Positions 12,313 to 54,438 of a stretch of DNA of 64,000 nt are shown here, in pieces. This DNA comes from Isoetes taiwanensis. Taxonomy: Eukaryota > Streptophyta > Lycopodiopsida > Isoetales > Isoetaceae. A program made the translations under genes and the position numbers. The DNA is taken from contig JAJEKV010000027.1 in NCBI GenBank assembly GCA_021234155.1, positions 10,676,716 to 10,740,715 of the forward strand, read 5' to 3'. Within the stretch, counting starts at the first letter, position 1, and each line of letters opens with the position of its first letter. The notes below the pieces were generated by a model. That model made no database searches. It saw only the letters and a program-made list of their open reading frames with translations, and was not told the DNA's origin.

Positions 12313-12342
12313 CTAGAAAAGTGTGCCCGGCGATGCCGGGCA
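12313..12342 (-). mobile_element. Helitron 3' terminus (hairpin + CTAG)
   Basis: Read on the minus strand: TGCCCGGC, loop ATC, GCCGGGCA, then CACTTTTCTAG and a flanking T. The 8-bp GC stem lies 11 bases from the CTAG end, the spacing expected of Helitron terminators. The same design recurs at 53,651-53,682. Confidence 0.9.
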
Positions 12343-12583
12343 TTAGTCGTGGACGTATGAGGGCATTTATGTGCGTTAGTTGTGGTTGTGTCGTGAATGT
12401 GCACAATGCATCGAAGGCAATGTATGTGTAGGTGGAAATAGACACATATAGATACTGAACAAACTTTACCTTTTTAAAGTGTACACATAATATGAAGTTC
12501 AAACAAAATGTTAAACAAATGTACTGGTTCTATACGCAAATACAAAATATTTTTAGTGCAAAATGAGGTTATGTCCGTCAATG

Positions 12584-13207
12584 TCAATGGATCCACATCA
12601 TGAAGAACCTGTCCCAAAGAACTCTAGGAACGTCCGTCGGCTCGATGTGAAGCTCAGTTGCAAAGCTGATAGGTATAGAAGCTCCTCCCGTCGTGCCTAT
12701 GGTGGCGAACATGAATGTGTAAACATGCTCTGATACCATGTCCCACACGCGCGACTCAGGTGTACCAACAACAATGTTATGCTTTGTTAGGAACTCAGGA
12801 AGCTCGTAATCGCCAACTGCGTCGTGTGGAATCGATGCCCAAGCCTTGAACCGTCTCCCATCACAAACACCAATGTGTGTGATGCCTCCTGGCGTGAAGC
12901 AAGTTCCCCTGCATGTATACTTGGAGGGGAACTTTTTTGACTCCAACACAGCAACACGCCAGCGTGTGTTATCAACTATCGTATAACTCCATACAATAAT
13001 AAGTTATCATTTCAGAAAAAGATAGGAAACATGCATTAATGAACTTCTTAATAAATGATAGAATATCCTATTAAGAAGCATATAAGCAATTTGTTATTGT
13101 TGGAACTAACAAATCTTACACTCACCATCCCTTTGATGTACATGAACTATCGCCCTTGGCTTAGGATTTTCAAGTTCCCGAGGTACAAAGGGTGTGTAGG
13201 GCGTCAT
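12584..13207 (-). CDS. Spliced Helitron accessory ORF, 157 aa, unknown
   Basis: Exon 1 is 13207-13126, starting at an ATG (MTPYTPFVPRELENP...). The donor is GTGAGTG at 13125, the acceptor ends ACGATAG at 12,976, and exon 2 is 12975-12584, giving an uninterrupted 157-residue frame that joins as HQRD|VDNTRWRVAVLES. An acceptor-like GTGTGCAG also precedes exon 1 (13,211-13,218), so it could instead be spliced to an upstream exon. Exon 2 holds GITHIGVCDGRRFKAWASIP and HVYTFMFATIGTTGGA. It lies between the helicase and the terminal hairpin. I do not recognise the family. A diverged relative sits in the same place in the second Helitron (54,013-54,366), which argues that it belongs to this Helitron lineage and is under some constraint. 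Confidence 0.6.
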
Positions 13208-13301
13208 GATCTGCACACATTTAGAAGATCAATAAACATCCAAGAATGAAAACCTTTGAAAAAAAACACAACGTTAGTCGAGGACATGACACTTACCTCC
13301 A

Positions 13302-15335
13302 TCACAAAGCATCCGTGTAAACCACGTTCCTTGTGAACCTTGAAACTGTATTGGCGTCTTCTTGAGGCATGGATAGTGGGTCTTTGATAGCAACCCGAAT
13401 TCCTTGTCGATTTTGTACCCTTGAGAATGCCACATATAATTGTCCATGCGTAAAGACAGGCTTTGGAGATATATCCCCACCTTATGCATTGTCTGGCCCT
13501 GGGACTTGTTTATGGTCATGGCAAAGACCGGCCGCAAAGGGAATTGCACCCTTTCAAACTGAAATGGCAAACCTGAATCGGTAGGCACAATTGGAATGCG
13601 TGATAGGAGCACAGTATCACCAACGTGTGTCCCAGTTACTATCTCTGCCTCAATGACACGTCTTCCCAGCTTTCGTATAATCAATCGTGTTCCATTGTAA
13701 AGGCCCTTCTTGAATGATGTAGACCTCAACAACATTACAATCATTCCCACCTTCAGGTTTAGCTCGTGGGGCGGTACACCACTTGGAGTTTGTGCATTAA
13801 GAAACTCAATGGGATATAGACCTGCTTGCTGGCCAACTGTGTCTATGATTCGATCAGCACTAAAGTAATCTGTCGTCTCTCCAGGGATAAGAGACGCCAC
13901 CTTCTTATTGATCTCATCAACAAAATAGTTCAAAGGCGATAGTATAGCACAACGTGTCCAGAAAATCACTTCTTTCCAATTCTGTTGGATATCAGAAAAT
14001 ATGTCCTGAATTAAATCATCCACATCATCTGAGCCAAGACATATATCCTGCGGGAGATGCACCATATCAACACCCTTCTCCGGAAAGGTTGGTTCTCGGC
14101 CATCTCCTATACTTAGTAAGTAGTCAGCAAATGCTTGTTGTTCAAGCGCATCTAACACCAATGCATTCATGACGCGCATGTTGATTGTCAGTTTATATTC
14201 TCTCACACTATCCCAGATATACGAACTCTTTAGATAAGCTTCTACAATTTGTGTGCGCGAACCTTTAGGAACCACGGGTAGTATTTGTCGGAAATCCCCT
14301 CCCAATAGCATTGGAATCCCACCAAACGGGGTCTGCTCATTGCCCATCACATCTCTCAATGTTCTATCCACTGCCTCAAATATCCATTTGTGCATCATTG
14401 GTGCCTCATCCCATACAATCAACCGACATGCTCGAATGAGTCTTGCCAATTCTGACTGCCTTGGAATGTTGCAGGTAGACGCTTCGTGTGCTCCTATGGG
14501 TATTTTGAAACGCGAATGAGTTGTTCGACCACCTTGCAGTAACACCGACGCAATATCAGAAGATGCAAGCGCCAGAGCAATCCAACCCCTTGCACGTACA
14601 TACCCTAGGAGAGTGTTATATAGATATGTTTTCCCGGTTCCACCAGGGCCATTCACGAAGAAGACCCCACCACTAGTCTTATCGATAACATGGTCGAGAA
14701 CAACATCATAAACTGACCGTTGATCAATGTTCAACTTCTCAGAATCAGATAGGACTTTATCCATACTCACATACATCATTTCCTCCTGGAATAGTGTGGT
14801 TGTGTCTAGCACAGTTTCTGGTAAGTTGAAGTCCATTTCTGCTAGGCTCCTTCCAACCGATTGCATATGATCCTCCACATCCATTAGTGCCATGTCAATA
14901 GCATACTGACTCAGCTGACCTGTCTTGGAATAAGCATCATAAGCAACCTGGTCTAGGAAATCTTCAACCATCCTATATTCCAACTCCTTCCAAATATCAA
15001 GTGGATACAATGGGTTACATTCCAACAGAATTGAAGCAAATAAATGTCGCAATTGACGTGGCATACCCCATGATGATGCTTCTCGTAGGCATTCTAGCCA
15101 CTCTGAATTATCATTCACAATCATTCGCTTGATGCATGCATTCTTGAATGTCTCACACAAATGACCGTCAACATTTTCAAATCTTCAAAAGACGTAGCTC
15201 CGGGTACATTGCTTAGCAACATCCGCAAATAGAATCGTTCACCCTGTGAGGGAGTCACAAAGTACATTCTACCCACAGATGGCATAACCTGAATACGCTG
15301 ACGAATTGTCCATTTGTATGTCGCCTTGTGGACCT
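13302..15335 (-). pseudogene. Helitron Pif1-like helicase (frameshifted)
   Basis: The C-terminal half of a RepHel protein; the helicase is thought to unwind DNA during rolling-circle transposition. The main frame (15160-13274) has Walker A GPGGTGKT (residues 171-178), Walker B IVWDEAPM (about 248-255), GGDFRQILPVVP, and QTMHKVG near the end. Two single-base breaks are visible. Near 15,176 the upstream frame (GERFYLRMLLSNVPGATSFEDL) shifts into the main one. Near 13,465 a lost C (CTCCAAAG for CTCCCAAAG) removes the final motif, which is still readable in the next frame as PVFTHGQLYVAFSRVQNRQG and ends NVVYTDAL at 13,302. The upstream end is broken by the retro-insertion. Confidence 0.9.
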
Positions 15336-16085
15336 GAGCTTGCCATGATGTTTCCCAATGTTGAGGCTTTCGCTACCTACAGGTCTAGGCATACTTTTGT
15401 CTCTACCTCCCCAATTGCTCCTATCCCCTGTCACATAGCAGCCACTTCACTCAAGTGTCGTATTGTATCATCTTCTTCCCATCTGCCTCTGCACTAGTTA
15501 ATCCGCCAGTATTACCAGCTCGTGTGCCTTCTTCTCTAGCTATTTCTGCACTATCGCCTTCTTTGAGTGCATCTCCGTCTCAGTCTATATCAGTAGACCC
15601 TCTTAATGAGGATCAACACTCTCGTCTTCTGGACATTGCTCACAAGCAAGAATTATTGGAAGAAGGATGGTCTACTCCATGCTTGAAGAAGCTTGCATGT
15701 CGCAAAAATAGCTCGGCTCCTCAATCTGCATTAGTTCACTCTGTAGCGCCAGTATCTGCTACGATTGTTACAGTGGATGTCCCTGATTCAGTGGCATTGA
15801 GACACCAGGGAGCAGATCAAGTTGTTGTTAATGATTCTATGGATGTGGAAGTTCGACCTGGTTAAAGTAACTTTTCTATAAATATAATGATATATTATTC
15901 TTCTCTTTGTAGGAGAGGAAAATAGTGTGAACTGCATTATACTGTCATGCTTAGATGGGTGGCCCTGCTCAGTTGGATCTGATTGTCCACTGGGTTTTTT
16001 ATTCATGTCTCTGCATTGTATTATGTATTATGATGGAGTGTTATTAATAAAGTTTGACGTCCTAAAAAAAAAAAAAAAAAAAAAG
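15336..16085 (+). mobile_element. Poly(A)-tailed retro-insertion inside the Helitron
   Basis: The Helitron frame breaks after FPKSF (16,090) and resumes near 15,335 (HKATYKWTIRQR). The DNA between, read on the plus strand, ends in AATAAA (about 16,047) followed 12 bases later by about 22 A residues (16,064-16,085), as expected of a reverse-transcribed insert. It contains a 136-aa frame at 15455-15865 rich in Ser/Ala/Pro with HSRLLDIAHKQELLEEGWS. I cannot tell whether the source is a LINE 3' end or a host mRNA. No clear target duplication is visible. The 5' boundary is uncertain by tens of bases. Confidence 0.65.
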
Positions 16086-18141
16086 TAAAGCTCTTGGGAA
16101 AGTCATGGTACAACAGAGTTCGAGACACTGGGTATTCATTTGCAGCATTCACCCTAAACCAACCCATGAGAGTGGTGCCATGTGCATTGTTAATCACTTC
16201 ATATAAGTCTGCATTCTCATCAAAAAGTATTGGTTGCTCATTCGGAAGGCGAACTCCTAAGCGCACGACATGAGGATTCTGTTCTTGCAACCCAAACTTG
16301 AACAACCGCCATGCGCCCTCAGAGGCAGCGTAGTATTTGGCATTGACATACTGCTGAACTTCGTCATGCTCATCTGTTATAGCGCTCGTCGTGGCGACAC
16401 TCTCTCTAGAACCTTCACTGATATCATGTCTAGACCCTTATAGATATACTTGTATAAGTATTTAACTCCTTTAATATGAGCACATATCTCGACATTGATG
16501 GGCATCTAAAATAGCATGATAACCACGGATTATAGGGTACAACCCATCTATTGTCCATGTTCATGCCATCTCGATAGACAGTTCTCCCATCATTTCTACG
16601 TCTATAGAGTGGGTACCCGTTGCTAATCATGGTCTGCTCTAGAAATTGCTTTGGATACCATTTACTACACACCCCATCTACCATACAGGGAGCATTGGGA
16701 TACGTAAGGCCGCAGGGGCCATGCATCATCTAATGTGTCACCACCTCATACAACTCAGGGTTAGATTCTTTGTCTGGAATCTCCGCACAAATCACTTTAC
16801 CTATATCCTCGACTGTCAGTGGCTTGTCCTCCTGGTACAATATGTTAAGGAGATGCACATGAGGAAGGCCCCTCTTCTGGAACTCAATGACATGAATCCT
16901 GGCAGAAATGCGGCCAAATATGCCATGGTGCGACACAATCTCTAATAGCCCCTTCAACTTTAAATAGAAGACATGGGCTACTAAATCAGGCCTGTCAGAT
17001 GGGTCCTGGCCATTTATGAGTTCCCTTTGTATTTCTGGCCACTTTGGGTTGGCAGTCATAGTGATGAATAAATCTGGTCGGCCAAGCTCTCGAACAATTG
17101 CCATCGCATCTTGGTAGAGCTGAGTCATGTAACGTGTGCTTCCAATAAATGTTTCTGGTAGAATGACACGATGTCCAATGGAGGTCCCATCGTGCCCAGT
17201 GGAATCCACACCATTATACAACTCACTACGTAGTTGAGCCTAATTTAGTTGTACCCAACCCAATCTTGACTGCCACATCTTAGCAAACATGTCACAGATG
17301 TACCATGGAACAACCTCCCTGCGTTATGAAGTGGTGATAATGTGCCACTGCGTACCTGTAGGTGATACTTATAGAATTGCAAGATGGTTACGCCCTTTGA
17401 TATGTTCACTTGTTGGATCCCTGTATGCCAGCCATCAGTTCCATAGGGGAACATGAGTGCAAAGTGTAGAGCATCATATGATGAATGATGTGCGTCAATA
17501 TGCCTTATTCCTCCTTCCTTTGAATGTACGACAATGTCTCTGAGATTGTCTTCTGGGCCACAGTCAAGTGGCATTAATATTGCTATCTCATTTGTAGATG
17601 GAGCACTATATTATCGTCTACGCGAATCCTGCAGGTTTGCACTTGGTATTCGAAGACGCATATCAACAGTTGGATTTGCTCGCATCACCTTAGCCGCTGA
17701 GAGAAATATATGAACAAAAGGATTTACATCTGCCATCATGTGTTGAAGGCACGCCATTGTATCACGTCGCGTACCACCACTGAACGATGTACGACGATCT
17801 AGCTGCAACTCATCACCGTCCATGATGTAAATTTGTGCAAAGCACGGATGTTCATCCTGGCTATCATGTAACAACATGGGACACATGCGGCCGTTGACTC
17901 TGAAAGTGTACGCACCTCCAATGGAGTTTGCCAAAGAGGCATCAAGTTTGACAGCCAATGAGGCAAATGCAAGAGCATTGTTATACTTTCTAATACCAGA
18001 GCGAAAGTCCCTTCCAATGTCATCCCTTCGTGTGTATAGATCCATGAGAGCAGGAGGGGGAGTCGGGAAAAGTGGCAATGAAACCTTCCCATTTGAACAA
18101 CAAAATGTACCAAGTTCATCCCTTCCACAGCAAGGCCCCAC
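16086..18141 (-). pseudogene. Helitron Rep (HUH-Y2 nuclease), broken
   Basis: Consecutive minus-strand frames cover a Helitron_like_N/Rep protein. In order they are: DELGTFCCSNGKVSLPLFP and the IRKYNNALAFASL block (17611-18141); SYDALHFALMFPYGTDGWH (17245-17574); LGRPDLFITMTANPKWPEIQ with the HUH-type HVH in KRGLPHVHLL (HVH at 16,853-16,861); MMHGPCG...DNRWVVPYNPWLS; then VKYLYKYIYKG (about 16,433-16,462), carrying the paired catalytic tyrosines. After that comes WRLFKFGLQEQNPHVVRLGV (to 16,090). Breaks include stops at about 17,608 and 17,240 and frameshifts near 17,310 and 16,470. The key catalytic residues survive, the frame does not. Confidence 0.9.
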
Positions 18142-19067
18142 AATGCTTGCATTTTTTGCTCATCCTTCCTGCATCGCAATATTGCGGAGCTGTAGCACTC
18201 CAAGCTATTTTCCAAAATCCGACCCTTCTCCTTATTAATGCCTCAGCTTGTGGTGCATCACCATCATCATCCTGGAATGCCTCTGCATGCCTTAGATTCA
18301 TCCTTCTCATGCTAGCACGTGCACCAATGCTACTTGGTTCTTCACCTGGCACACTTGCAATAGGATTTAAATGCGATACCACTCCCATTGCATCACCCTC
18401 TGCAACAATATTCTCACTTTGCATGGGAATGGTGTTCTGCACTACGTCGCCAAGTCAAGAACATCCACCCAGCGTTGTTGCACTGTTACCTCCATCAAAT
18501 ACATTCCCACCCTGGTCTGTCAAACATGATGCCACTGTTGTGCTAGCAGGCGTTAAGCTAACATTCTCAAATTCTCTTGCCAATGCTCTAGCGTTGGCCA
18601 TGCGTCTTCTTGCTCGACGATTGCTTTTCTCCAACTTAGACTCCATTTCCTTAGGTGTTTCATAAGATGGATTTTGCCGTACAGCATCTGGGGTTTGAGT
18701 TAAGGTTCAAAGGAATTCCATGCATAGTGGATCGTGCTGGTAGAGCCTCAGTACATTCATCATCAACAACCCCACTTGGCAACGAACTCACAACATCCAT
18801 GCTTGTTGATGCATGGATTAATATGCACTCATTCAGCTCGTGCTGCAAGTTTCTAACAATACTTCCATAGGTAGTTCCATCTCTCTCGCATGTGTCATCA
18901 TGCACAACCATGTCTCCCCCTATTGCACGTGCTCGTGCTCTCCATGTTAATTTACACTTACGGGCCAGACGCCTCTTCCTAGCTGACTTTGACTCTTGTT
19001 CGGGTGTAACTGAAGATGCCTTGCCATCTTTATAAGTTCTAGAACTCATGGTTTTTGATGTCACCAT
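18116..19067 (-). pseudogene. N-terminal region of Helitron Rep
   Basis: Three minus-strand frames (19067-18660, 18646-18455, 18442-18116) run towards Rep. The first two are Arg/Lys/Ala-rich (ARKRRLARKCKLTWRARARA; NRRARRRMANARALAREF), typical of the variable N-terminus of plant Helitron proteins. The last ends in KKCKHCGALLW, the Cys motif that normally precedes the FCCSNGKV block. The two basic segments look like diverged copies of one another. Frameshifts separate the pieces. Confidence 0.7.
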
Positions 19068-19230
19068 ATCCTGAAGATGAAGATGAGGTCATGGATCCGA
19101 ACGGGGCATATAGGAAAGGAAGCTACGGGTCAATTAAGCGTGCAAATTTACATCCATATAACTTTGTATCTAGAGCAACATAATTTAGGCCAGACAAAAG
19201 TAATCCTAATCCCTAAAATAATTAGAGGCT

Positions 19231-19475
19231 AGTGAACATAAATCCTACTGGTAAAGAAAGACCTCGAACACACTGTGTGCCCATGCCAGCACGAAACTAA
19301 ATTGAAACTTAGGAGAGTCATAAACGTTCTATCAAAAGTAATGTAAAACCCTAAAAGAATCTTACAGATTGATGAACATAAATTCTACTCGTAGGGAAAG
19401 ACCTCAAATATACTACGTGCCCATGCCACCATGAAACTAAACATTCTCCTAGAGTGTCATAAACATCCTAACAAA
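19231..19475. repeat. Diverged direct repeat, about 105 bp, two copies
   Basis: GTGAACATAAATCCTACT at about 19,231 and ATGAACATAAATTCTACT at about 19,372 begin related stretches that share GTGCCCATGCCA and GAAACTAAA and end in GTCATAAAC(G/A)T. Copy spacing is about 141 bp. It lies just upstream of the Helitron genes and may be part of the element's 5' region. Confidence 0.65.
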
Positions 19476-20615
19476 TGACCTATCGAACAGGTGGAATCCA
19501 AAACGGTCTTCCTCTAGTACATGGAATGTCACTCACCCTAAAGAAAAAGTGGATGTAATAGCAAAGCAAACAAACAAGACACACAAAAAAAGTTTATAAA
19601 GTTTGGTTACCATTGTGGTCCATACCAAACAATAGTTTGACACAAAAGAAGGGAAAATATTTGTTTTTACCTTCTCGAATACAATGGTATGTACTTTGAG
19701 AATCATGTTCTAGCAACGTACCAAAAGGAGAAAATCTTGAAGTTCAAGTAAAGAAAAAAAAATAAAAATGAAGAGACTATAATAAATAGATAAACTTTTT
19801 TATCCATTGACCATGTCGTAGGATTACATCAAAAGGGTACATAAGGCATGTACCTTATAATTTTGATGAAGTACAAAAAAGAGTATTCTAAGGCGATGCT
19901 CTTTTATCATCAAGGAAGTGCTACAACACCATTAAAGGTCTATCTACAAAAACAAAAACCTGCACTGCACTATGCTCTCAACCCATGTTATTCTCTCAAC
20001 CATCTTCCCCATTCTTCAGTACAAATAACATCTCATTAATGACTTCTTTGACCTCCCTCACTTCCACGAAAGTGCTTTGGCTATAGAATTTCTCAAGCTT
20101 GACAATAAGATTCACGATGTCAACACTTATCAACTCATGTACACACTTTGGACATGGCCTCCAAGGTTGCCACTCATACCACGACACTTTTTCAAATCCC
20201 AATTGCTCGAAAATGCTTCTACGGCGATTGCTATTCTTTTTTACCTGCATCCTTCTTCTCTGGACCAATCTTTAATTGATTCTTGGTTCATACCTATTCA
20301 AAGGGCTTCTCTAGAACATCACATAATATAATGCCAGAAGGTAGAAAATATAAAAGATACTCACCTTCCAAACCTCACCTACACAATGGCCATGGGTCCA
20401 CAAGTCTTAAAGCTTGCTGGAAGGAGAAACAAGCCATTTGGTTCTTCAGATGGAAGTGTGCAGGAATAAAGGTGTATACAAGTACAAAATAATGCAAATC
20501 ACAATCGCCTGAAAGCATTATTTAGGCATGTGCTTCCTAAGTAAGCTTTGGGATGCTAGGGCTTTAGGGCTAGTAAAGACAACACACTATAGAAATTAGA
20601 TTAATCCCATGCTTG
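19476..20615. other. No gene recognised
   Basis: AT-rich DNA. A 90-aa minus frame at 19996-20268 (with YEWQPWRPCPKCVHELISVD) is the only protein-like piece; it has no family match known to me and no supporting context. Confidence 0.4.
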
Positions 20616-20965
20616 CCAGGGATCCACATCGGTACCTGTTAGCGCATTTGCCCATGAAGAAGCATAGAATGATCGCATCCCTTCATGCAGATGCAAAAAT
20701 GCCTCAGAATTGAGACAAGCAGATTGACCTGAGAAGAGCTAGAAAACAAGGTCTGCCAATGTTGAGAATTGGAAGTTATTGAAGATGAGTGCCACACTCT
20801 ATAGAACTGCCCATCATTTGAGCCTATTAGAGCACAATATGCCAGGTTGGTTACACCTAACAGACCACTACATATGTTGTTGTAGATGGCTGCAGTAGGG
20901 ATATTAGCATCATACCTTCAGGAGATATTGGACATGCGAGATCAGTTGTGTCTTTTATCAATATA
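20616..20965 (+). mobile_element. LINE 3' fragment (non-L1 family)
   Basis: Plus-strand frames match the C-terminus of the LINE at 29.2-31.6 kb. MKKHRMIASLHADAKMPQN corresponds to the QKRHAICRIRL region. VIEDECHTL*NCPSFEPIRA corresponds to QVEDEEHALLRCKAYETLRD (zinc-binding-like tail). VGILASYLQEILDMRDQLC corresponds to LGKYLLELLRFRDTCL. Stops and frameshifts show it is dead. The sequence after 20,965 to about 21,465 has no recognisable gene apart from a palindrome CCCCCTCGAGAGGGGG near 21,015. Confidence 0.65.
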
Positions 20966-21465
20966 TTAACATGTACAAATGTACAGTTTATCATTAAGCT
21001 TATTAATATGGTTTCCCCCTCGAGAGGGGGGGTCTTTAAATCCTGGACAGTAATAGATTTACTGTGTTCTTTTTGGGTCTCATAGGCTTTTTGGTCTCCA
21101 CGGAGATAAAATTCATATCAATTCAATTCTTTGTTCAAAAGAATGATTGTAAAGACAACGGACTTGCGAAGAGTTTGAAGAATCTTGGCAAACGAGTGGA
21201 ATCCTTCCCCTGGGGCTATCTATATACCCAAAATCGCCACCTTCGTATAAGCAAGCAACCTCGTCTTGTAATTTTGGAGGGAATTCTAACTTTTCAGATA
21301 AATCAAATTTAAAAAATGTGAAAAAGTAATATGTATAATTTTTGCATCCAAATATGCATTTGCGGTGTTGCACATCATTTAAACAAAGAATATTGTTAAT
21401 GTCATCATCACTTTCATTTACTAAGTGCTCTTGATAGTTTCATCTATTATTGGAGCATTGCTAGC

Positions 21466-22320
21466 AGAATGGATGATGCCCAGAAGCTCCTAGAGCAAAT
21501 GGTGATCTCAGGCTTAGTTCCTACGATAATCACATACACCACCATGATGTCAGGGCTTTGCAAGGAAGGCAGAGTCGACGAAGCTCTAGAACTTCTTCAG
21601 AAGATGATAAACAGGGGTTGCACTCCAACGGTGATCACATATAACAGCCTCATCAATGGCCTCTGCAGGGCAAACAAAATGGAGAAGGCGCATGAGCTTT
21701 TGGCAGAGATGTGCAAAAGGGGTACAAGCCTGATATTTTCACCTTCACCACTTTGATTGGAGGGCTCTGCAATGCTGGCAAGTCAGATGAGGCCATGCAT
21801 CTTCTTGAATGTCGTCTCAAGAGGAGAGGTATTTCCTGATGTTGTCACCTATTCTGTGCTTATGGGTGGTTTTTGCAAAGAAGAAAGGTTGGATGAAGCA
21901 CTGCCACTATTTAAATAAATGGTGCAAAGTGGCTGCAAGCCCAATGTCATTACCTACAACACACTGATTACCGGGTTTCGCAAGGCTGAAAAACCGGATG
22001 GGCCTTGGATCTTCTGACAGAGATGGTAGAAAGCGGCTTTCATCCAGATTTGTACACTTACACAACACTTATTTCTGGATTTTGCAAGGAGAGCAGATTA
22101 GATGAGGCTTATCATCTCCTAGGTGAAGCAATAGCCAGAGGAATGGTTCCAGATGTTGTGACATACACAACCCTTATGGATGGCCTTTGCAAAGATGGCA
22201 GAATAGAGGATGCCTTTCAGCTCCTGAGAACCATGAGTGAGAATGGCTGCAAACCAGGTATTTTCACATATAATACTTTGTTAGATGGATTTTTTAAGGC
22301 TGGTAGAAAGGCTTTGACGA
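21466..22320 (+). pseudogene. P-class pentatricopeptide repeat pseudogene
   Basis: About eight 35-residue PPR motifs follow one another, such as VPTIITYTTMMSGLCKEGRV, TPTVITYNSLINGLCRANKM and VPDVVTYTTLMDGLCKDGRI. PPR proteins bind organellar RNA, each repeat contacting one base. The reading frame shifts near 21,725 and again near 21,825 and 21,985, and has a stop at about 21,915 (LFK*MVQSG where the family has Glu). There is no organelle-targeting N-terminus, and homology ends sharply at about 22,315 in the middle of a repeat (FFKAGRK). So this is a truncated fragment, not a gene. Confidence 0.85.
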
Positions 22321-22761
22321 CGAAGGAGATGCGACTAACATGCACCTCCTTCCGAATCAAACATTCGGCAACATGGTTGCCAAAAGCATACTATGGCACC
22401 AAAATTTGCACCATCTACATGACAAAAGAAAAATAAATTAGAGCAAGTTTAGGCAAGGACTGGCATGGGCACGTGTATAGTAGAGGACAACTTGAAGGCA
22501 AGTTTATTGGATTCTTTAACTGGGACAAGACACAAAAACCTCTTCGACTCAATATAGAAAGCACAACATGAGATTCTACTCTAAACCCTTAGACATCTAC
22601 CCTTTCCAAACATGAAATAATAAATAAAAGAAGCATGTCAACTAACCTTGCAGAAGCAGCCGAATCACCAGCTCACTATGCCTTGGACACAACGAACACA
22701 ACTTGATTATCTGTTCACAATAAATCTCATGTAAATCAATAGATTTTCTATTTCTGAAATT

Positions 22762-23769
22762 TCAGATATTATGTGCTGCGCTATCTTCGCGCTCCCAAAC
22801 AATAATGCTGCAGTCAGTAGAAGCAGAATACAGAATTTGACCACTAGGGCTGATGCCAAGGGCATTAACAAAAGATTTATACCCTTCAAGACATGAAACG
22901 AAGTTATGCCATCTCTTGCTCTCTCTTTTCTTAAGACTGGCACCCCTTTTCCAAACCTTAATCTTAGAATCTGATGAACCCGTGTATACATATTTTGAAA
23001 AGATAACCACGGCATTGATGGCATCGTCATGCGCCCGAATTGATTCTAGGCACTCAAAATCCTTCATTCTCCATACTTTGAGGGTCCTATCCCATGAGCC
23101 AGAGTATAAGAGGTCAGGATTATGAGACTTGGCAAGGCTAGAGATTGAATCTGCATGTTGAAGCCACATGCATTTTTTATTTCTTCTAACTGCAACATAA
23201 TTTGAAGGAGGAAACAGATTTGTGAAGATGTTCTTCATGGTGGGAAGGCTAGCAACCAGATCATGTTTGAGAGTCTTGGAAGAACATTTTCATACTCTGA
23301 CTTTTTTTGTCTTGATGACCACTGATGATCATTCCTTCATCCATGGGAAGAAGATTTAACTGCGTCGCCATCTGCGGTGATGTCCAGCTTTTGAAGAGGA
23401 AGCATTTCTGGCATTTTCCACACAACTATTTCATTTGAGGCTGAGGCAGTGTACAACAAGCTGCCCCACAATGCTATGGATGATACATGATCATTGTGGG
23501 CTTGCTGGAGGGTCCAAGCACAGTCATGGGCCTTGCAGCAGTCACCAAATATTGAATGGTATAAGACTGAGATGGGACCGAAAGCTGGAAATGGAGAGAT
23601 CAGAGGTGTCAAGCATACTTCGCTGGCTCGAAAACCTGCTACTGCTACTGGCAGCCACACTTGCCATGTTGATGCTGCTGTTGTTGTTGTTGATAGTATT
23701 GTTGTAGTTGTTGTTGCTGCAATGTAAACCTGCCACCTTGTCATCAGAACTCTTCCAAAGCAGCTCCAT
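22762..23769 (-). pseudogene. JINGUBANG-type WD40 repeat pseudogene
   Basis: The 3' frame (23238-22762) carries WD40 repeats (LLYSGSWDRTLKVWRMKDFE; SKYVYTGSSDSKIKVWKRG) and the end block VNALGISPSGQILYSASTD then IIVWERED, characteristic of the plant JINGUBANG family of cytosolic seven-blade propellers (the Arabidopsis member restrains pollen germination). The upstream frame holds NDHVSSIALWGSLLYTASAS then EIVVWKMPEM. A plausible start is MELLWKSSDDKV at 23,769 with an Asn-rich and Ser-rich N-terminus. Frameshifts are needed near 23,556, 23,335 and 23,307, and a TGA replaces a Trp (KVRV*KC). No introns, as usual in the family. Clearly broken unless the frameshifts are sequencing errors. Confidence 0.8.
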
Positions 23770-24339
23770 GCTAATTGCCTGATGCTCCCACAGAAAGAGT
23801 ACCGCTGCCAGAATTCAAGGGATTGCAGCTTCTGTTTTGGCATATAATGGTTCTACACTAATGTATGTCATATATATTTATAATATACCACAATATGATA
23901 CCCAGTTTGCAAACAAACTCTGTCAATGCCAAATTTTACGGGAGGATTCCATAATGTTATGGAGGATTTGTTAACGTAAGCAGAGCAATGGACATCTAAA
24001 AAGTAAAACTGTACCACCCCTTCACATAGAGACTATTTTTTGACCGGGACATCAAGTACCTCCAACTTTGGTCTTAATAACGTTCAATTGCATGCATTAG
24101 CATAAATAAGATTGTTTTCTCTCTCCTTTAAGGACTTTTCTTCTTGCAAGTTTACTTGCACCATCTCAAGTGCCTCTAATTCACAGTTCTGAATTGCCTT
24201 ACCTAACGAAATGCTACTTGGAAAGAATCGCGGGTACACATCCTTCTTTTCTTGAAGGTAGATTTAGATTTCTTAAACTGAAAAACGTATGTCATTATAG
24301 CGGAACAACAATGGTCACATACAAAAATGCATTTTCATG

Positions 24340-26575: not shown

Positions 26576-27840
26576 CTGATCAGCGGGCAGCCAGGCGGGG
26601 GCAAAGGTGAGCTCGCAGATCTAGTACCTCCTGAATGTACGACCCCGTGAAGCGCATCTTGGACGGTGTGTTCATCGGCAAATGTAGGGGCAAGTCCGGC
26701 CGCACTAAGGGGAGCGTGGTCCGGTCCGGATCGACCGAATCTTTGGGGCAACTCACGGAAAGTGTGAGACTCATCCTCAATGGCACCCGCTTGACAAAGA
26801 CCGACAGAGCAGCTGGCCCGGGCTCCCCAATCCACTTGCCCGCCTCGATCACGAAGATGGTGGACACTGCGGCGAATGGAGGCAATGAGTCTCGCTTTTT
26901 GGGCAAAATGGGGCGCAAGTAGAGCTGCGGGCCCCGGGCTAACACGGGGTTGATGTGCTCCTTGTAATGGGCCGTTTTGACCTGCTCTAGAGCGGCCGGG
27001 TCCCAGAGCTTGCCAAGGGCCTTAAACGCCCGTGTACTCCCCGCAGTGTCATGATCGGCCTCGTGTGCACCTCCTTTTTTGTGCTCCCTACACGTTCTAT
27101 CTGGCGAACCACTGATCTCTCTTACCCCTCCAACAGGCCCTGAGCCGCTGCGGGCCCATTGCCACAGCGTAAGCCAGGTGCGGGAGCCGAGCATCACCCA
27201 TATTAACCACTTTACAAAAATAGACGATGTGTCTATCAAGGGCTGCCACCCATTTGGCGGCAAGAATCCAGCTTTCTGCGGCCCGAATCCGATAGGGGAC
27301 CAAGGTTTCACCCCAAGTGCCCGCGTGCCAAAAATGTCTTCGCACTGCTCCAAGTCATTCCAGTCGCCAAAGAGACGACCGGGCCCCAAACCTCGACCCG
27401 TCGCAAAGGGCCGAATTTCGACCAGTGCAAACAGAGATATGACCGATGGCCCCAATCATAGAGCTCTGCCGCGGTGACATTTGTTCGCATGGTATAAAGC
27501 GCTTTCAGCCTTCTTTGTCACCCATAGCGGATGGACGCCTCCCAACAGAGCGAGGAGGGGAACTCCACCCCTAGGTACTTGTAGGTGGGCGTGACCTCTA
27601 CAGGTTGTCCCCGATATGTGAGTGCAGGAGGCGTGGGGTGCCGTGAAGAGGATATGAGAACCACCCTGGTCTTGGCCAGATTCACGCGCATGTCTGTAGC
27701 CTGACAGAATGTGTCCAGAGCATCCAGATGAGACTGCATAGCTTCTGGGGTGTGGGCCAGAAGGTCAACATCGTCCGCATAGATGAGCTGGCGGATGACC
27801 TGGTGCAAAAGCTGTATGCCATCCCCCCATGCTCAGTAAG
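26576..27840 (-). mobile_element. LINE reverse transcriptase 3' half, GC-rich (non-L1 family)
   Basis: The frame 27808-27518 carries the RT catalytic box in IRQLIYADDVDLLAHTPEAM and then YKYLGVEF, the palm and thumb of a LINE RT. Frameshifted continuations include SWILAAKWVAALDRHIVYFC then DARLPHLAYAVAM, and QVKTAHYKEHINPVLARGP, which match LPHVALM and KTKMLLYKQNINPNLEQARH of the LINE at 29.2-31.6 kb. It is 5'-truncated, with many frame changes. It is noticeably richer in G+C and CpG than its surroundings. Confidence 0.75.
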
Positions 27841-28084
27841 CAACAACCCAAAAGGAGTCTTTAGTGGAAATGGTTATCCAATGGGCCCAAACCTTTATTT
27901 ATTCCATCCACACGCATCCCTCAATTTTTATCTTTCGTCCATAATGGGCCTTAACCTCGCCAAGGTTTTATATATCATTCCTCTGCAATGGGCCCAAATG
28001 TAAGATTCATATCATTTCTTTCCAAACATATGAATGGAATAGTATAGATAACATAAAGACCAATAAGCCACGAGATTCATATAA

Positions 28085-28305
28085 TGGGCTAGTATATCCA
28101 TTATTACTAGAATTAAAGAACCTTGCCCAAAAAGATTTTCAAGGGAAAAACCTTGGCAAGAATGATGATGGAACACCTCCATAGGGAAATAAACCTTGGA
28201 CTCTAATACTAAATGCTATGCACTAATCCCATAGTGCTAACCAACAACCTAAAAAGGCTGATCCTTATAGTGAAGAATCATTATCTAATGGGCCCTAAAC
28301 TCTTC
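28085..28305 (-). mobile_element. Second copy of the copia-LTR-like sequence
   Basis: Shares TTCAAGGGAAAAACCTTGGC, CCCATAGTGCTAACCAACAA and the AATGGGCCC motif with 26,225-26,575. Orientation is the same. The following stretch to about 28,825 has no gene that I can see. Confidence 0.4.
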
Positions 28306-28829
28306 AAAGTTATCACATTGCATACCCCACAAGCCTCCTTCAATTCATATCATTCCAACTACTAAGAGATGGCTGAGAGGTGGAATTATCACAAGTAGAT
28401 GCCATGTCATTTTGGACATGTGATTTTATGGCGCTAGATCTAACACTCCATCTTGACCTTGTTGCTCGAATTTGGACAGTTTTCTTTTCTCATCCTTCAT
28501 GTGATCTCGTCTTTATGAATTCAAGTCCTCTTCCTTATTGGGAGCTATGATGCATCTTGTGTATCCATCATAAGGAGGACATTGATCAGGATCACTAGAA
28601 TGATATTCTCAAGAGAATAAACATGCATATATCATATGCACGGATTGCACTCATTTTTTGGCATTGGGTTCGCTTTTTATTGCAGGAGTCTTCATCAACT
28701 TCTCATATCGATATTTTTTCTTTGTCTCAACAGTTTCATAAATAATCACTACATGTGAGTATGAGTGCAAAGTGTAGTGGGGACCCTCTTTTGTGACAGC
28801 TTATTAATTCTCGCATGCAGATTCAAACT

Positions 28830-28990
28830 TCTATAACTACCATTTGGACATGGATAGACACAACGACACAAGCAGCGCCACAAATAGCTGGGGCATATGG
28901 TGCTAGTTGGAAACTTCAATGCACACATTGGAATAGAAAGTTAACGAAGTTTGACCCCCTGGCTAAGGACATATTACAACTTTGTCCAGC
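28830..28990 (+). mobile_element. LINE endonuclease fragment
   Basis: One plus-strand frame reads GHMVLVGNFNAHIGIES, the conserved GDFNAHIG catalytic motif of LINE apurinic-type endonucleases (Asp changed to Asn). It is a short orphan piece ending at the microsatellite at 29,038. Its strand is opposite to that of the LINE just downstream, so it is a separate fragment. Confidence 0.55.
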
Positions 28991-29037
28991 AAAGGTGTGA
29001 TGTGATCAGATTTGTGCAATGTTAATAATGAAATATG

Positions 29038-29185
<148 letters not shown>

Positions 29186-29230
29186 TATTATGTCTATGGG
29201 AGGCCTCATGGGCCTATTAGACAAACATCA

Positions 29231-31640
29231 TCAAATATCATCATAAAACAATAGATGAGTTTCCGAATCCTCATCTAGCTCATCACTCTCACTCATTTCA
29301 TATACATCACCCATATCAATGGTCTTAAGAGTATTCAAACAAGTGTCTCTGAACCTTAATAGTTCTAACAGATATTTTCCTAAAGTGTCCCCTTCCATGT
29401 TAAAGAAAGCTTGGAGGTCTTCATAAAGGATCCCATACTCATCACGTAACGTCTCATATGCCTTACATCTAAGTAAAGCATGCTCTTCATCCTCAACCTG
29501 ATCTGTACCACATACCTTACAATATCTCTGATCTCTTGGTATTATATGCCCCCATCTCCCTACTTCAATCCCTAGATGATGCGAGCTCAAGCGAATTCTA
29601 CAAATAGCATGACGCTTCTGAATAGATAAATTCTCATTTAAATGTCTTGCTTGCTCTAGATTGGGATTGATATTTTGCTTGTATAAGAGCATCTTTGTCT
29701 TTGGTTGCATCCACATCTTTCTATGAATCCTTGATGTTAACCAGGATCTTAAATCCTTGTCTATGGAAGATACCTCTTCCCAAGAGATACCCCATTTACC
29801 AAGCCATTTTATCACATCATGAAATATACCCTTCTCTTTGCTAGACATCAAAGCTACATGTGGCAACCTTGTCTCGTCTAGTCCATGTACTTTCTTAAGA
29901 TAGAGAATGCATCGAATGAGGGCTTCCCCTTCAAGAGGGATAAGACCACTCTCAACCAACATCATAGGATACGGAGTTTGGGATTTAACGCCCAACTCCA
30001 ATCTTAGAAACTTCTTCAAAACCTGCTCAATGTCTTCCCACAAGCATTGTGGGAGACTTGGCCCCCCAAATCTCACATCCATAAAGAATCACACTTTGTA
30101 CCAGAGTTTGAAAGAGTTTTAACTTCAAATGCCATGACCATACATGTGCTCTTCTACTCATACTTTGGAGCGCATATAATGCTTTGTGACCACCTTCAAC
30201 GCGTTGGTTTATGCAAGCATTCCATCTATGATTCTTGCAGAAAACAAGTCCCAAGTATTTGTATGAGTCACACATGTTCACCAAGTTCCCCTTATACCGA
30301 AAAATGGGATCCTGTTTCAAGCTGCCAACTGCCATAATACTTGTCTTATCCAAATTCACCTCCATTCCTATCCGCTCACAAAAAGATTCCAACCCATTTA
30401 AGTGACTCTGCATATGCTCCCGAGATCGTGCAAAAATAACTACATCATCAGCATATAATAGTAATTGCATCAAGTATCCATGTACCTCCATCCCACCAGG
30501 GCAATTACTATGTAGCCATTCGTCCAAACTATCAATAAATAAACCAAATAGTGTGGGAGACAATGGGCACCCCTGCTTCACTCCAATATTACTTTCTACA
30601 CAGTCTGAGACATCCAAAGAGAAAGGGTAAGATAATTGTACCAGTACTTTATCATAGAGCACCTGAACTGCTTCTCGGAGATCTTGGGGGACTTGAAGTT
30701 TCTCCATCCGCTCCCAAAGTTGGCTGCGTGGTACCTTATCAAATGCTTTTTTAAAGTCCACGAAAGCCATGTACACTGGTTTCCTCGTGCCTTTAACAGT
30801 ATCAAAGACCGTTTTCAGTGTCAGTAGATGATCTAAAGTAGATCTACCTGATCTAAAGCCCGCCTGTGCCTCTGATCTCTTCTGATTACATTCTGCCCAC
30901 TGGTTCAGTTTCTTTTCCAAAATTGTAGAGAAAAGCTTTGAAAATAGGCTACTTACCAGAATGGTGCGGTAATTATTTACCTCTGTTCGCAGGCCACCTT
31001 TATGTATTGGAACTACTCGATTCTTACACCAGTCATTGGGAAACCCCTGCGATAGAGCCATATTGAGCATATTTACTAGAACAGGATGTATTGCAGGACC
31101 AGCCCATTTCAAATGCTCCGCACATAATCCCGTGTGATCCTTTGCTTTGCCATTTGCTAGCAACTTCACCCCATCTGCTACCTCTTCATTGGTAATGACT
31201 AATTCTGAACTTTTTGTATTAGCCCCTTCATGGGATTCCTCGTCATGATATAGTTTGCGCACATGCTGCCAGAGTGCTTGTGAGGCAATCGGGATATCCA
31301 TCTGCTTATGCTTCCTTAGCATGTTCCAGAACAGCTTTGGCTCATTCAGGTATCTTGTACAGAGAAGATGCTGTCTATTCCTCATAAACAAGCATTTTTT
31401 GTTGCGAACCACTCTTCTATAGTGTTGCTTGCAGGACTCCTTCTGATCTGCCTTACTTCTTTTCCAATTATCTTTAGCATTCCGGCAGTCTTGATCAAAC
31501 CATGCCTTGCATGATTGACCTTTCCTGGCTCTGTGCGGAATGAAAATTTCGCTGGCCGATGTATCCAGGACCTCATGTAATTGGTGTGTCATCTTGTCTA
31601 AATCAAGATTATCCCATGACAGATCTGACATCTTGCCCTC
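29231..31640 (-). mobile_element. LINE reverse transcriptase, long, one frameshift (non-L1 family)
   Basis: The best-preserved LINE of the window. The N-terminal frame (31661-30027, 544 aa) has AQAGFRSGRSTLDHL, motif A AFVDFKKAFD (residues 299-308), QGCPLSP (363-369), YADD (403-406) and YKYLGLVF. A single frameshift near 30,065, beside a C6 run, leads into the second frame (30082-29231, 283 aa) with LRLELGVKSQTPYPMMLVES and a tail with CKVCG then EDEEHALLRC, a zinc-binding-like motif. The endonuclease is missing, so it is 5'-truncated. Motif wording and tail differ from usual plant L1 elements; the clade is undecided. Its 3' end abuts the compound microsatellite. Confidence 0.9.
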
Positions 31641-31783
31641 TACCCGGCATCTGTACGGCACTTGAGAGAGAGAGATGCGTTGGCCACATGGGGGTTGAGA
31701 GATGATTTGAGAGATGGGGAGAGATGGGAGATGGCGAGAGATGAAGGGAGAGTAAAAAATTTGGCTCTCCCTTTGAGAGACAA

Positions 31784-31811
31784 AACGCCCCTAACTATTG
31801 TTAGGGGCGTT
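31784..31811. repeat. Perfect 12-bp hairpin near the Harbinger left side
   Basis: AACGCCCCTAAC, a 4-base loop, GTTAGGGGCGTT. GTTAGGGGC(A) recurs about 40 bp further in (31,838-31,848). A looser version, CCTCCTAACGGGCCAGTTAGAGG's type, lies at 36,774-36,796 on the far side of the element. Confidence 0.75.
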
Positions 31812-32130
31812 CCCATTAACCCTCTCGCCTGTTTTATGGTTAGGGGCATAACGGCCGGTTTTTGAGTTTTGGCGCCCGAAAACTCTCCCGGAAATCGAGC
31901 CACCAATCCCGACCCCTTCAAGAAATGATCTCCTGTTCTTTGATCTGCCCGCGCACCTCCTGCTCCAATTCCGCATTAGGGTGTCGAGATTGGCCTTGCA
32001 ATCCAAATTCCTCAAGCATTTACATTAAGATTTCGGGTCTCAGGTTTGGAATCCTTCTTGTGAATTTCTGATTTAAATTGTGTTCAAGAAGTAATTTACT
32101 GTCAAATTCTATTACAGCAGACTCTGAATC

Positions 32131-33216
32131 ATGACTAGAGCTTCTAGATCTGCTCTTCCAGCAACCGCGAAACCCTTTGTGCCACCTAGAACCGAGAAAT
32201 TGCCTTCTAAGAGGCCGAAGAAGATGACTGGTCAAATTCCTGAATCTGATGCATTGCAGATCAGCTCTCAGCCTGAAGGTGCAAAGGATTGCAATCCGAG
32301 GAAGCAGAAAAAGGCAGTGGTTCCAAATCCTGGTGAGTCGATGCCCCCTGATAATTCTTTGGCCTTGATTGTTCATGGAAGTGATGCTGATGCCATTCAA
32401 AGCAAGAAAAGAAAGCGTCCTGTTGATTGGTCTGATAATGCAATTGGCACAATGCTTTCCTTGATGAAAGAATATAAAGTGCATAATAATGGAAACATTA
32501 ATCTGTCCGCCAGTCAGTGGAGAGAGATCATGATAAAACTTCGACATTCAGTAGAGGGCTTAGAAGATTTAAGGCAGTTGAGAAACAAATGGGATAAATT
32601 GCAGATTAAATTTAGGGATGAAAAAGAAGCTTCAGAAAGGACTGGAGCAGAACCTTCGAGCTGGCCATGGTTTGAAGTCATGGAAGATTTAAAGCATGGA
32701 CAGACTAATGAGAGAGACATACCTGGTGGTGGAGATGATGGATCTTTTGGTCCCGAGGCATTTCAAGAAGCTGATATGTTCACAAATGAATTTATGTCTC
32801 AAGCATTCTATGAGACAATTGGCACTGAAGCTTCATTTGTTGAAGAGGAATTTGTGAATGTTGAGAATGTGAATGTTGAGAACAATGGAGATGTTCCTGC
32901 CAGTCCATACAGTCCAATTGGCAATGGCAGTAAAGACACTTATAGTGCTCAGAAAGAAAATGGTGGGAAAGAGACTCCAAGTGGCTGCAATATTTCTGAT
33001 ACAAGCCCAAGATCTGCTGCTTGCAATAAACCAGGAGTTTATGGGAAGCCAACAACCAAAAGAAGATCTCGAGTTCATATAGATGAAGATATTGCAGCAG
33101 GCATATCTAAAATGGCAAACAGTTTTGGGGAAAATGAAGCAAGGAAATTGGAGTTCATGAGGGAGGATTCTGTGAAGAAGGCAGAATTGATCAAGGAATT
33201 AGAGACAATGAGATAA
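32131..33216 (+). CDS. Harbinger Myb/trihelix-like DNA-binding protein
   Basis: In PIF/Harbinger elements this partner protein binds DNA and helps recruit the transposase. The frame encodes 361 aa from ATG 32131. A Myb/SANT-like (trihelix-type) domain runs from about residue 95 to 190: DWSDNAIGTMLSLMKEY, NLSASQWREIMIKLR, LRQLRNKWDKLQIKFRDEKE, SSWPWFEVMEDL, with the regular Trp residues of the fold. The N-terminus is basic (KRPKKM, KSKKRKRP). The C-terminus has a coiled-coil-like SFGENEARKLEFMRED. A TAA at 33,214-33,216 ends it, but the same frame stays open for 37 more codons (ANSLKIAESMATMTQSICQM...) to a TAA at 33,333, so a nonsense mutation may have trimmed the normal C-terminus. Confidence 0.85.
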   Translation: MTRASRSALPATAKPFVPPRTEKLPSKRPKKMTGQIPESDALQISSQPEGAKDCNPRKQKKAVVPNPGESMPPDNSLALIVHGSDADAIQSKKRKRPVDWSDNAIGTMLSLMKEYKVHNNGNINLSASQWREIMIKLRHSVEGLEDLRQLRNKWDKLQIKFRDEKEASERTGAEPSSWPWFEVMEDLKHGQTNERDIPGGGDDGSFGPEAFQEADMFTNEFMSQAFYETIGTEASFVEEEFVNVENVNVENNGDVPASPYSPIGNGSKDTYSAQKENGGKETPSGCNISDTSPRSAACNKPGVYGKPTTKRRSRVHIDEDIAAGISKMANSFGENEARKLEFMREDSVKKAELIKELETMR

Positions 33217-33716
33217 GCTAACAGCTTGAAAATTGCTGAATCAATGGCCACCATGACACAAAGCATTTGTCAGATGACAAAAGATACCCTCCTGGAGATT
33301 GCCAAGCTTGCTTCATCGAAATCAAATTCCTAAATTGAGGTATTTCGATGTTTTTCACCTATCAATTGTATACTCTGTTTTTCTGTTATTCTGTAATACT
33401 CTGCTATAGTAATTCTGTTATTTTGAGATTCTGAGTTGCTGTTACAGGTTTGTCTCATATTGTCTCATGTGATGTAATGGGTAGGTCATTTTCAATTCTC
33501 TATGAATTTTTCTATTTGCAAACTGAAGTCGTCTGACATAACAGTCTGCCCCATTAGTTCAAATCCAATAATATGCTTGTTATTGGTCTGGTCGTCATAT
33601 AATTCCAATATTTCGGACCATTATAGATTCTGGACCAATGTACCATCAGCCAGCAGCACATAAATGCTCCCTCGTATATTGTGCCCACATTATTTCTTCC
33701 TTTTTCTATTGAGGAG

Positions 33717-34079
33717 ATGGCGAGGACGAAATTAGTAGTGAGGGAGCGCTTCAGATTCCGCCGTTTGCCATCTCCATCTTCTTCAAGCTCCTCAAGCTCT
33801 GCAGCCATGTCTGTCGGTAGTGCTCACTCTGCATGCACAGTCGAGGAGAATGAGGTTTCCATTCTTCAAACAAGGAAGATCCACAATTCCATTACTGCAC
33901 AAGCTTTTGTGCAGTATCTGGATATGGGGACGGTCAGAATCGAGGAGGAGTTGTTCCACTGGGCTATGCATGCACCTGTGCGACAAAAGGTGCATGTGGA
34001 GTTCACATTTGTCAAGGTTACTGGTCAGTGGGTGCTCATGGAGATCAAAACTCCGACAAACAGTTGTGTAGCTTGTTGA
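33717..34079 (+). CDS. Hypothetical 120-aa ORF inside the Harbinger element
   Basis: Begins at ATG in a good context (GAGATGGCG) and encodes MARTKLVVRERFRFRRLPSP, a Ser run, and then a compositionally normal stretch including HNSITAQAFVQYLDMGTVRI and VHVEFTFVKVTGQWVLMEI. I do not recognise a domain. It lies 380 bp after the Myb-like gene and on the same strand, and ends about 1.1 kb before the 3' end of the convergent transposase gene. It could be a captured host exon, an accessory protein of the element, or a chance frame. Confidence 0.4.
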   Translation: MARTKLVVRERFRFRRLPSPSSSSSSSSAAMSVGSAHSACTVEENEVSILQTRKIHNSITAQAFVQYLDMGTVRIEEELFHWAMHAPVRQKVHVEFTFVKVTGQWVLMEIKTPTNSCVAC

Positions 34080-34459
34080 AGAGGCCCTGCTATGTTTTAT
34101 TTTTGTTGCTGGCGACTGTAAACCCCTGCCGAGGAAGATGATCCTTCTTATTTTGTTCTTTTTTTTGTACGTATGTTGTTTTAAGATGATACAGCTCGAA
34201 TTCTCTCTACTCTCGGCTAAAAATATCCTCTAATATAACCTCCCTCTAATATCTTGGCTTTCTTCACTCTGCTTGTAATCCTGTGCTTTTTTGGTAGCAC
34301 AACTTTTGTATATTAAGGCACTTACATAAATGAAAGCTATTTATGTACAATGTTGTACTGGTTCTTAGTTTTATTTTTCGTACTACTGAGTTGTTTCTGT
34401 TTTTTGTTCACAGATTGTCTTGCAAGTCATTGTCTTGCACTCTTTTAACGGTTTGACAG

Positions 34460-35030
34460 GGATGCTTGAGTTTCAGCAATGTTGCTTTACATTTGTAACA
34501 GAAAAGCAAGTAACAGAAAAGCAAATGTTACTTTAGGTTTGATAATCAAGTTTCTGTAAATGCAAGAAACAGAAACTGTACTTTTGAGTTCATTTAGTAA
34601 AAAGTTCACTATTTGTGAAATTATTTGTGCACAGATTTAAGATTGTAGTAGTGTTATTAACAGGGATCTTTAAGTTTGTAGCAATGTTACTGCAAGGTTT
34701 GTAACAGAAAAGCAAGTTAAAAAAAGAACAATGTTACTTTAGGCTAGTTAATCACGTTTCTGTAATACCAAGTACATTTCAATACACATTTCAATACATA
34801 TTTCAATGCCACAATGCACATTGCAGAATTCACAATTCACAATTCACTAAACACAATTCACAAGACACAATATGTCCAACTCAATGGTATCTGAACATAG
34901 ACATAACTGTTTCACATAACAGTTCACAAACAATCATCACATAACTCAATGGTATCTGAACATAACATGGAAATAGAACTCTACATAGACATAACTGTTT
35001 CACATAACAGTTCACAAACATAACAGTTCA
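34460..35030. repeat. Direct repeats between the convergent Harbinger genes
   Basis: GTAACAGAAAAGCAAG with ATGTTACTTTAGG and GTTTCTGTAA occurs at 34,490-34,560 and again at 34,697-34,765. Further on, CATAACTGTTTCACATAACA and ACTCAATGGTATCTGAACAT each occur twice (34,879-34,931 and 34,943-35,020), with many CACAATTCAC pieces before. The interval 34,080-35,184 has no gene. Confidence 0.75.
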
Positions 35031-35184
35031 CAATCAAAGTAATGTGTGTTTAAGTTTGCATCATTTGCTGAATAGAGCAATTAATGTCCTGCTGTTACAC
35101 AGCAGAAAGTGAGAACCGAAAAAACTTAGAATTATGTACCAAGAATTATGTACCAAAACTTATGTACCAAGAATTTAGCAGCAC

Positions 35185-36844: not shown

Positions 36845-36997
<153 letters not shown>

Positions 36998-54366: not shown

Positions 54367-54438
54367 CTGAAAAAGAAGACAAATAATTGCACGTTTACTC
54401 AAAGCACTACATTTACCCAAAAGATAGATACATGCACT

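Follow-up and report, generated by a model that had tools for sequence, protein, structure and literature searches.

A selected accessory gene of no known family in Helitrons of the lycophyte Isoetes taiwanensis

How single strands are managed during the rolling-circle transposition of Helitrons is poorly known, and in plants the usual candidate for the task is an RPA-like gene. The closest described counterpart of the gene reported here is PHRPA of the rice Mothra elements, which likewise is an extra gene beside RepHel inside plant Helitrons; as PMC4683698 presents it, PHRPA is also kept in elements that have lost RepHel, is thought to help handle single-stranded DNA, and is reported from monocots and dicots only, within an account in which Helitrons gained single-strand binders independently at least three times. 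PMC5148889 describes other additional proteins of this kind: FoHeli3 of Fusarium oxysporum carries an additional ORF, upstream and in opposite orientation, which like our gene has no known domain and occurs only in Helitrons, and the endonuclease and OTU domains of Helentrons are again additional protein domains of a Helitron-type element.

Here we describe a gene, ORF2, in Helitrons of the lycophyte Isoetes taiwanensis, starting from a window of 64,000 nucleotides (the whole stretch of DNA that was analysed; C1031:10676716-10740715 in an assembly of 1,658,258,908 bases and 1110 contigs). ORF2 is a true accessory gene of these elements, preserved by selection and to date seen in this one genome: it lies inside the elements, its splice sites are conserved in two Helitron families (A and B), and its protein is under constraint in both. 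According to its published description (PMC8566536), the assembly was built from Nanopore reads and polished with Nanopore and short reads, and because of this origin some frameshifts in repeats may be assembly errors, so that our counts of broken copies would be too high rather than too low. The ORF2 region of several loci (L011, L012, L016, L023, L046, L051 and L055) shows substitutions and indels in short clusters, and in some of these copies a CGGCC-like string recurs at one shared position; either the Nanopore consensus erred in these repeats or the loci have truly been rearranged locally.

The family A element and its predicted two-exon gene

The window carries a family A Helitron on the minus strand from 12313 to 22766, running from a 5' TC to CTAG/T (slashes mark boundaries), with identity to L015 and other copies stopping at both points. 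Its flanks read ...AATA/TCTGAAA at the 5' end, the less certain of the two termini, and CTAG/TCG at the 3' end, and it has suffered insertions at about 22306-20185 and 16083-15328. The open reading frame list places Rep (Helitron_like_N) and upstream RepHel pieces at 16730-18159 (minus strand), and the PIF1-like helicase part of RepHel occupies 13302-15184 (minus strand), with a PF05970 match from the genome search at window 14090-14737. In L015, whose frame is open through to the C-terminus of the family A helicase (...RNVVYTDAL, then stop), the corresponding matches are 1e-52 for PF14214 (two open pieces joined across a stop) and 2.3e-77 for PF05970. Alignment places the 3' terminal hairpin, TGCCCGGCATCGCCGGGCA, and the CTAG end at 12313-12345 (minus strand); hairpin and CTAG/T are followed by unlike flanks in 10 of 13 family A rows (the hairpin is imperfect in L016), while the end is altered in L018 and the rows for L020 and L021 stop short of it. 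Both hallmarks of a Helitron are thus present, namely Rep (Helitron_like_N) joined to a PIF1-type helicase, and a 3' hairpin with a CTRR end followed by T. The ends of the window copy (A/TC...CTAG/T) may reflect insertion between A and T with a 5' TC; no empty site was found.

The 5' end of this Helitron falls inside a reading frame at window 22762-23852 (minus strand, ...STDCSIIVWEREDSAAHN/) that we take to encode a WD40-repeat protein. Joining the flanks of the Helitron at this frame gives a stop a few codons on, and the frame is either cut by the insertion or a natural 3' part. Other long frames in the window, at 27000-37100, 48890-49576 and 61855-63557, may belong to a LINE reverse transcriptase, a Harbinger-type transposase with a Myb/MADF partner, a polygalacturonase and an HXXXD acyltransferase.

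Between helicase and terminal hairpin, the preliminary description had placed a two-exon frame of 157 aa with clean GT-AG borders. The frame and its position are as described: on the minus strand, the helicase stop at 13304-13302 is followed by exon 1 at 13207-13126 (an open frame from ATG to HQRD), by the ORF2 stop at 12586-12584, and by the hairpin with its CTAG/T end at 12316-12313. The account of the borders stands for the donor and the upstream intron, which are conserved, but not for the acceptor before 12975, which differs from the family acceptor, an AG 15 bases further upstream in 10 of the 11 other family A rows of our splice-site table. Intron 1 (13211-13296, minus strand) opens with the donor GAG/GTAAGT 5 nt after the helicase TGA, and GTAAGT is kept there in 12 of 12 family A rows; it closes with GTGCAG/ATC ATG, GTGCAG being found ahead of the ORF2 start in 10 of 12, and across the family the ATG lies 0 or 3 nt past the acceptor. 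Intron 2, within family boundaries ATG/GTGAGT ... TTGTAG/GGA (12991-13125, minus strand), has its GT donor in all 12 rows and an acceptor TTGTAG/GGA or TTGCAG/GGA in 10 of 12, the exceptions being L021, where an insertion alters it, and the window copy, which reads TTGTAT/GGA. The window copy, itself decayed, has lost the family acceptor AG, and the second junction at 12975 serves there as a fall-back. At the family boundary exon 2 runs from 12584 to 12990 (minus strand), an open frame conserved in the family, rather than starting at 12975. Because the family acceptor lies 15 bases upstream, the family A protein is 162 aa long, not 157, and reads ...RRD-GSYAIVDNTRW.... The window helicase has a one-base frameshift near its C-terminus; with this and the lost acceptor AG, the window copy is probably dead, and other copies with an open ORF2 exist.

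To place the frame among related elements, regions of 9,901 bases were fetched around 20 of 150 helicase matches in the genome. A tblastn search with the 157-aa protein (E up to 1e-3) gave a match downstream of the helicase in 11 of these 20 regions (L009-L013, L015-L018, L021, where ORF2 is cut by an insertion, and L023), which are family A loci. A twelfth family A helicase, L020, has its ORF2 match outside the fetched piece, at C197:111074-111436 (genome search), and ORF2 is thus counted after the helicase in 11 of 12 family A loci. The remaining 8 loci have helicases about 45-54% identical to that of the window over the main aligned piece.

Family A elements carry a second module, ORF1, at their 5' end (for example, 1907-2221 of L015 in element orientation). 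Of ten family A loci searched by tblastn, seven contain it (L009-L011, L013, L015-L017) and L012, L018 and L023 gave no match; a profile detects it in L020 and L021. In the window, tblastn with the L015 ORF1 finds it on the minus strand as a first piece at 22307-22414 (MVQILVP, a stop, then YAFG...) and a second piece at 19981-20184 split off by an insertion. The family A ORF1 protein is acidic (pI 5.0). We do not propose that splicing over RepHel yields a fused ORF1-ORF2 protein in family A, as the ORF1 exon ends in a stop and has no well-conserved donor.

Related genes in families B and C

A diverged relative had been noted at the same position in a second Helitron end near 54 kb. The relative is real (54.37-54.01 kb, with a local alignment score of 75, whereas the highest of 2000 shuffles reached 51), and lies in the 3' end of a second Helitron family, B, where it forms exon 2 of a longer gene that includes another module. 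In the window, the family B ORF2 exon occupies 54013-54366 on the minus strand (MRNDTVHW, stop, IGVL...FRVPS, stop), open apart from one in-frame TGA. It is preceded by an ORF1 exon at 54454-54762 (minus strand; MVPWYVFGHHVAKCL...RCLRGCALRE), recognised by tblastn and by comparison within family B, and followed at 53652-53683 (minus strand) by a 3' hairpin, here with an imperfect stem, and a CTAG/T end of the kind also seen in L039, L042 and L049. The 54-kb copy is a truncated family B end, given its in-frame TGA and the loss of similarity to other copies at the start of ORF1. A different origin, in which a deletion joined ORF1 to the last helicase codons, was rejected: family B copies that have the helicase carry the ORF1 exon at the same place, with the helicase's own stop upstream.

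Family B was sampled by fetching 14 further 3' regions from other helicases, of which L039, L040 and L042 belong to the family, and 12 extra candidates picked by the extent of their helicase match, which with those three loci make 15. ORF2 is present in 12 of the 15 (L040, L042, L044, L045, L046, L048 and L050-L055), several times with frameshifts or deletions. Among the others, L039 has a family B end from which ORF2 is deleted, L049 retains the last ORF2 residues before a family B end (these residues lie at the very beginning of its fetched piece), and in L047 the DNA of the 3' region is unrelated, so that this locus may not be family B. Together with the family A counts, these regions show that the ORF is kept by other members, whose lack of it the preliminary description had named as grounds against its reading. 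In family B the ORF1 exon precedes ORF2, with an AG acceptor directly before the ATG and a donor of GAGAG/GTAGG type, and the two exons would join in frame to encode about 224 aa. The family A ORF1 is 42-47% identical to the family B exon, and in both families the start ATG of each module, ORF1 as well as ORF2, sits no more than 3 nt from a splice acceptor. One further family B element, L043, has upstream of RepHel a 153-aa ORF (L043:644-1102) that starts with ATGGTG right after an AG, as ORF1 does; it is a distant ORF1 relative, scoring 22.9 bits with an A+B profile (best shuffle 9.4) and 12.2 bits with a B-only profile (best shuffle 9.8).

A third family, C, is represented by one locus, L027; its helicase shares about 53% identity with that of the window. 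Here an ORF2 homologue lies on the 5' side of RepHel (reverse-complemented 939-1331), and scores 46.8 bits with the A+B profile (E 1.7e-12; best of 1000 shuffles 7.7), 20.2 bits with an A-only profile (best shuffle 10.9) and 25.5 bits with a B-only profile (best shuffle 7.5). A candidate ORF1 homologue in the same locus (377-757) was dismissed at 4.7 bits, below the best shuffle of 9.4. The family A protein is 25-26% identical to those of B and C; all three share a conserved core, D..WR[VIL].V ... IG[VIL]C[DN]G..F[KR] ... S ... L ... W, and all are predicted to be basic (pI 8.8, 9.2 and 10.4 for A, B and C, one protein each). ORF2 was not detected over about 10 kb in seven loci with other helicases (L014, L019, L022, L024, L025, L026 and L028), nor over 3 kb of the 3' side in eleven more (L029-L038 and L041); given the former, ORF2 may not be needed by every Helitron here.

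Selection, copy number and searches for relatives

The preliminary description had proposed a check for purifying selection, and constraint was found in both families in which it was measured. In family A, pooled pN/pS for ORF2 is 0.24 in the coding frame, against 1.25 and 0.99 in the shifted frames (11 copies, leaving out the truncated L021 and the uncovered L020), and for the helicase in these copies the coding-frame value is 0.165. Among the pairs listed, which are led by the window copy, L010 and L015, ORF2 dN/dS between the two main subfamilies is 0.10-0.17 in nine of ten cases and 0.21 in the tenth, three pairs with L018 give 0.22-0.28, and within subfamilies eight of nine pairs give 0.28-0.72 and one 0.14; the higher values within subfamilies are as expected of copies decaying after insertion. 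Between subfamilies of family B the value is 0.21, against 1.51 and 1.37 in shifted frames, for 8 of the 13 ORF2-bearing copies (the 54-kb copy included; five with visible frameshifts or deletions were excluded, and L040, L042 and L051 were retained despite one frameshift or deletion each). ORF1 behaves similarly, with a pooled pN/pS of 0.34 in family A against 0.99 and 1.37 in shifted frames (7 copies), and 0.30 between subfamilies of family B (11 copies) against 1.3-1.5. ORF2 is constrained at the protein level on the lineage that produced the copies, and a chance ORF is ruled out by these tests together with the shuffles.

A genome search with the window exon 2 returned 511 candidates, the best 150 of which were scored, giving 154 reported matches; among those listed, many are full length without a stop, and many other copies are decayed with stops. 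Three ORF2 loci without a listed helicase nearby (L056-L058) proved to have a disrupted helicase, a truncated helicase, and, in L058, just exon 2 and the 3' end, and all three finish in the family A hairpin and CTAG/T. On contig C1048 (10070323-10087779), four co-oriented ORF2 copies follow one another at intervals of 5569, 5951 and 5535 bases, a tandem array that could come from rolling-circle read-through.

By sequence, the impression that the protein does not read like RPA is borne out, with no RPA or OB-fold match in Pfam or PDB. At E up to 10, Pfam has no family for ORF2 of A, B, C or the 54-kb copy; in PDB no RPA chain was found, a family-A-rich profile gave nothing better than E 1, and an A+B+C profile gave nothing; the best PHROGs match had E 0.14. 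No homology to SSB or another family emerged from the Pfam, PDB and PHROGs searches, and a pattern-plus-tblastn search of IMG/VR and GTDB genomes found no relative. ORF1 gave sub-threshold noise in Pfam and a best E of 0.73 in PDB. The domain PF02721 (DUF223), common in the RPA of plant Helitrons, had 0 matches in the Isoetes genome and likewise 0 in the control genomes, which left this search without a positive control. An apparent WD40 similarity of ORF2 in a single-sequence PDB search (E 1.7e-6) was set aside, as it consists of weak repeat-protein matches in which no stretch passes alone and is absent with profiles. AlphaFold2 models of the two window sequences are unusable, at mean pLDDT 35.8 and 43.1: the latter has the order b-b-b-a-b-b-b-a, at this confidence a hint only, whose first six elements might fit an OB barrel, and the former a different one, b-b-b-b-a-b-a-a. 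These searches are consistent with the earlier suggestion of a lineage-specific gene, this genome being the one plant genome covered, and a literature search limited to open-licence papers turned up no account of ORF2, nor of any accessory gene in lycophyte Helitrons.

Possible roles of ORF2 and comparison with known systems

We consider it probable, with a fair margin of doubt, that ORF2 is a true accessory gene, selected together with RepHel and present in three diverged families, expressed from spliced RNA and acting with RepHel in transposition. Since in A and B its start codon is found directly at an acceptor or up to 3 nt away, ORF2 would be expressed from a spliced RNA beginning within the helicase gene or beyond it, either as a second frame further along the RepHel transcript or from a start of its own. 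The protein would then act with RepHel during rolling-circle transposition. It might bind the displaced single strand or the element ends, the job ascribed to the RPA-like protein in Helitrons of flowering plants, a guess prompted by that analogy, by the basic charge, and by a weak strand-strand-strand-helix-strand-strand pattern in a poor model. The lack of any match to SSB, RPA or another family and the acidic ORF1 of family A weigh against it.

A role other than DNA handling, in which ORF2 (with ORF1) would help the element in its expression or in countering host defences such as silencing, strikes us as unlikely, though it is the strongest of the alternatives: the strong divergence between families, the absence of detected homologues and the changing position around RepHel would suit it, and the purifying selection within families counts neither way. 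We give less credence still to the idea that ORF2 is not a separate protein, and instead a C-terminal domain added to RepHel by alternative splicing. The donor just past the helicase stop in every family A row examined (a similar one may exist in B), and the acceptor immediately ahead of the ORF2 ATG, are what such splicing would use, yet in family A the helicase frame, if joined here, meets a stop, and ORF2 has its own ATG; moreover, the letters of the helicase stop are kept in 13 rows even though the upstream frame is shifted in the window copy, L011 and L016, and in family C ORF2 lies upstream of RepHel. Least likely of all, in our judgement very improbable, is that ORF2 stems from a piece of a host gene, taken up a single time and since then a passive passenger whose conservation reflects shared descent only. 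The capture of gene fragments is common among Helitrons, decay is seen in many copies of ORF2, and L058 is reduced to exon 2 and the 3' end; however, codon-level constraint holds in both A and B, and the homologues occupy different places in three families. The single capture of one host gene by one element, named in the preliminary description as an outcome that would refute its reading, is disfavoured because related ORFs sit in three Helitron families. All ORF2 loci read with their flanks, L056-L058 included, lie in Helitrons, and no host copy was met among them, a minority of the 511 candidates.

Returning to ORF2 as an accessory gene acting with RepHel, its placement and that of ORF1 vary between families: the two are split between the 5' and 3' sides in A and joined on the 3' side in B, and ORF2 is on the 5' side in C. 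A bolder version, which we advance tentatively and regard as doubtful, is that lycophyte Helitrons acquired a DNA-handling protein of their own, independently of RPA, with ORF1 and ORF2 travelling around RepHel as units; it would then be a further Helitron replication helper, of convergent origin, with a fold undescribed in any transposon.

A non-RPA gene selected in several Helitron families of an early vascular plant offers an independent test of whether such elements need a helper, and if ORF2 binds single strands or RepHel, that need would be general. The gene is also a sign that the accessory genes of Helitrons have been too little described beyond flowering plants, and ORF2 can be used to probe the genomes of further lycophytes and of ferns and mosses. 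That a lycophyte should have an extra gene of another kind agrees with the several gains counted in PMC4683698. Compared with PHRPA, ORF2 has no RPA sequence match, is short at 117-162 aa, belongs to no known family, and resides in a lycophyte host. In window 54366-54762 the accessory modules stand without a whole RepHel, and in L010 ORF1 runs straight into the first exon of RepHel; both recall the RPA-bearing, RepHel-less mother element of rice Mothra. Unlike the accessory domains of Helentrons, ORF2 has no endonuclease or OTU match in Pfam. Set beside the additional ORF of FoHeli3, a comparison made by description only, ORF2 is co-oriented with RepHel and predicted to be spliced, and is present in three Helitron families, in two of which its constraint has been measured.
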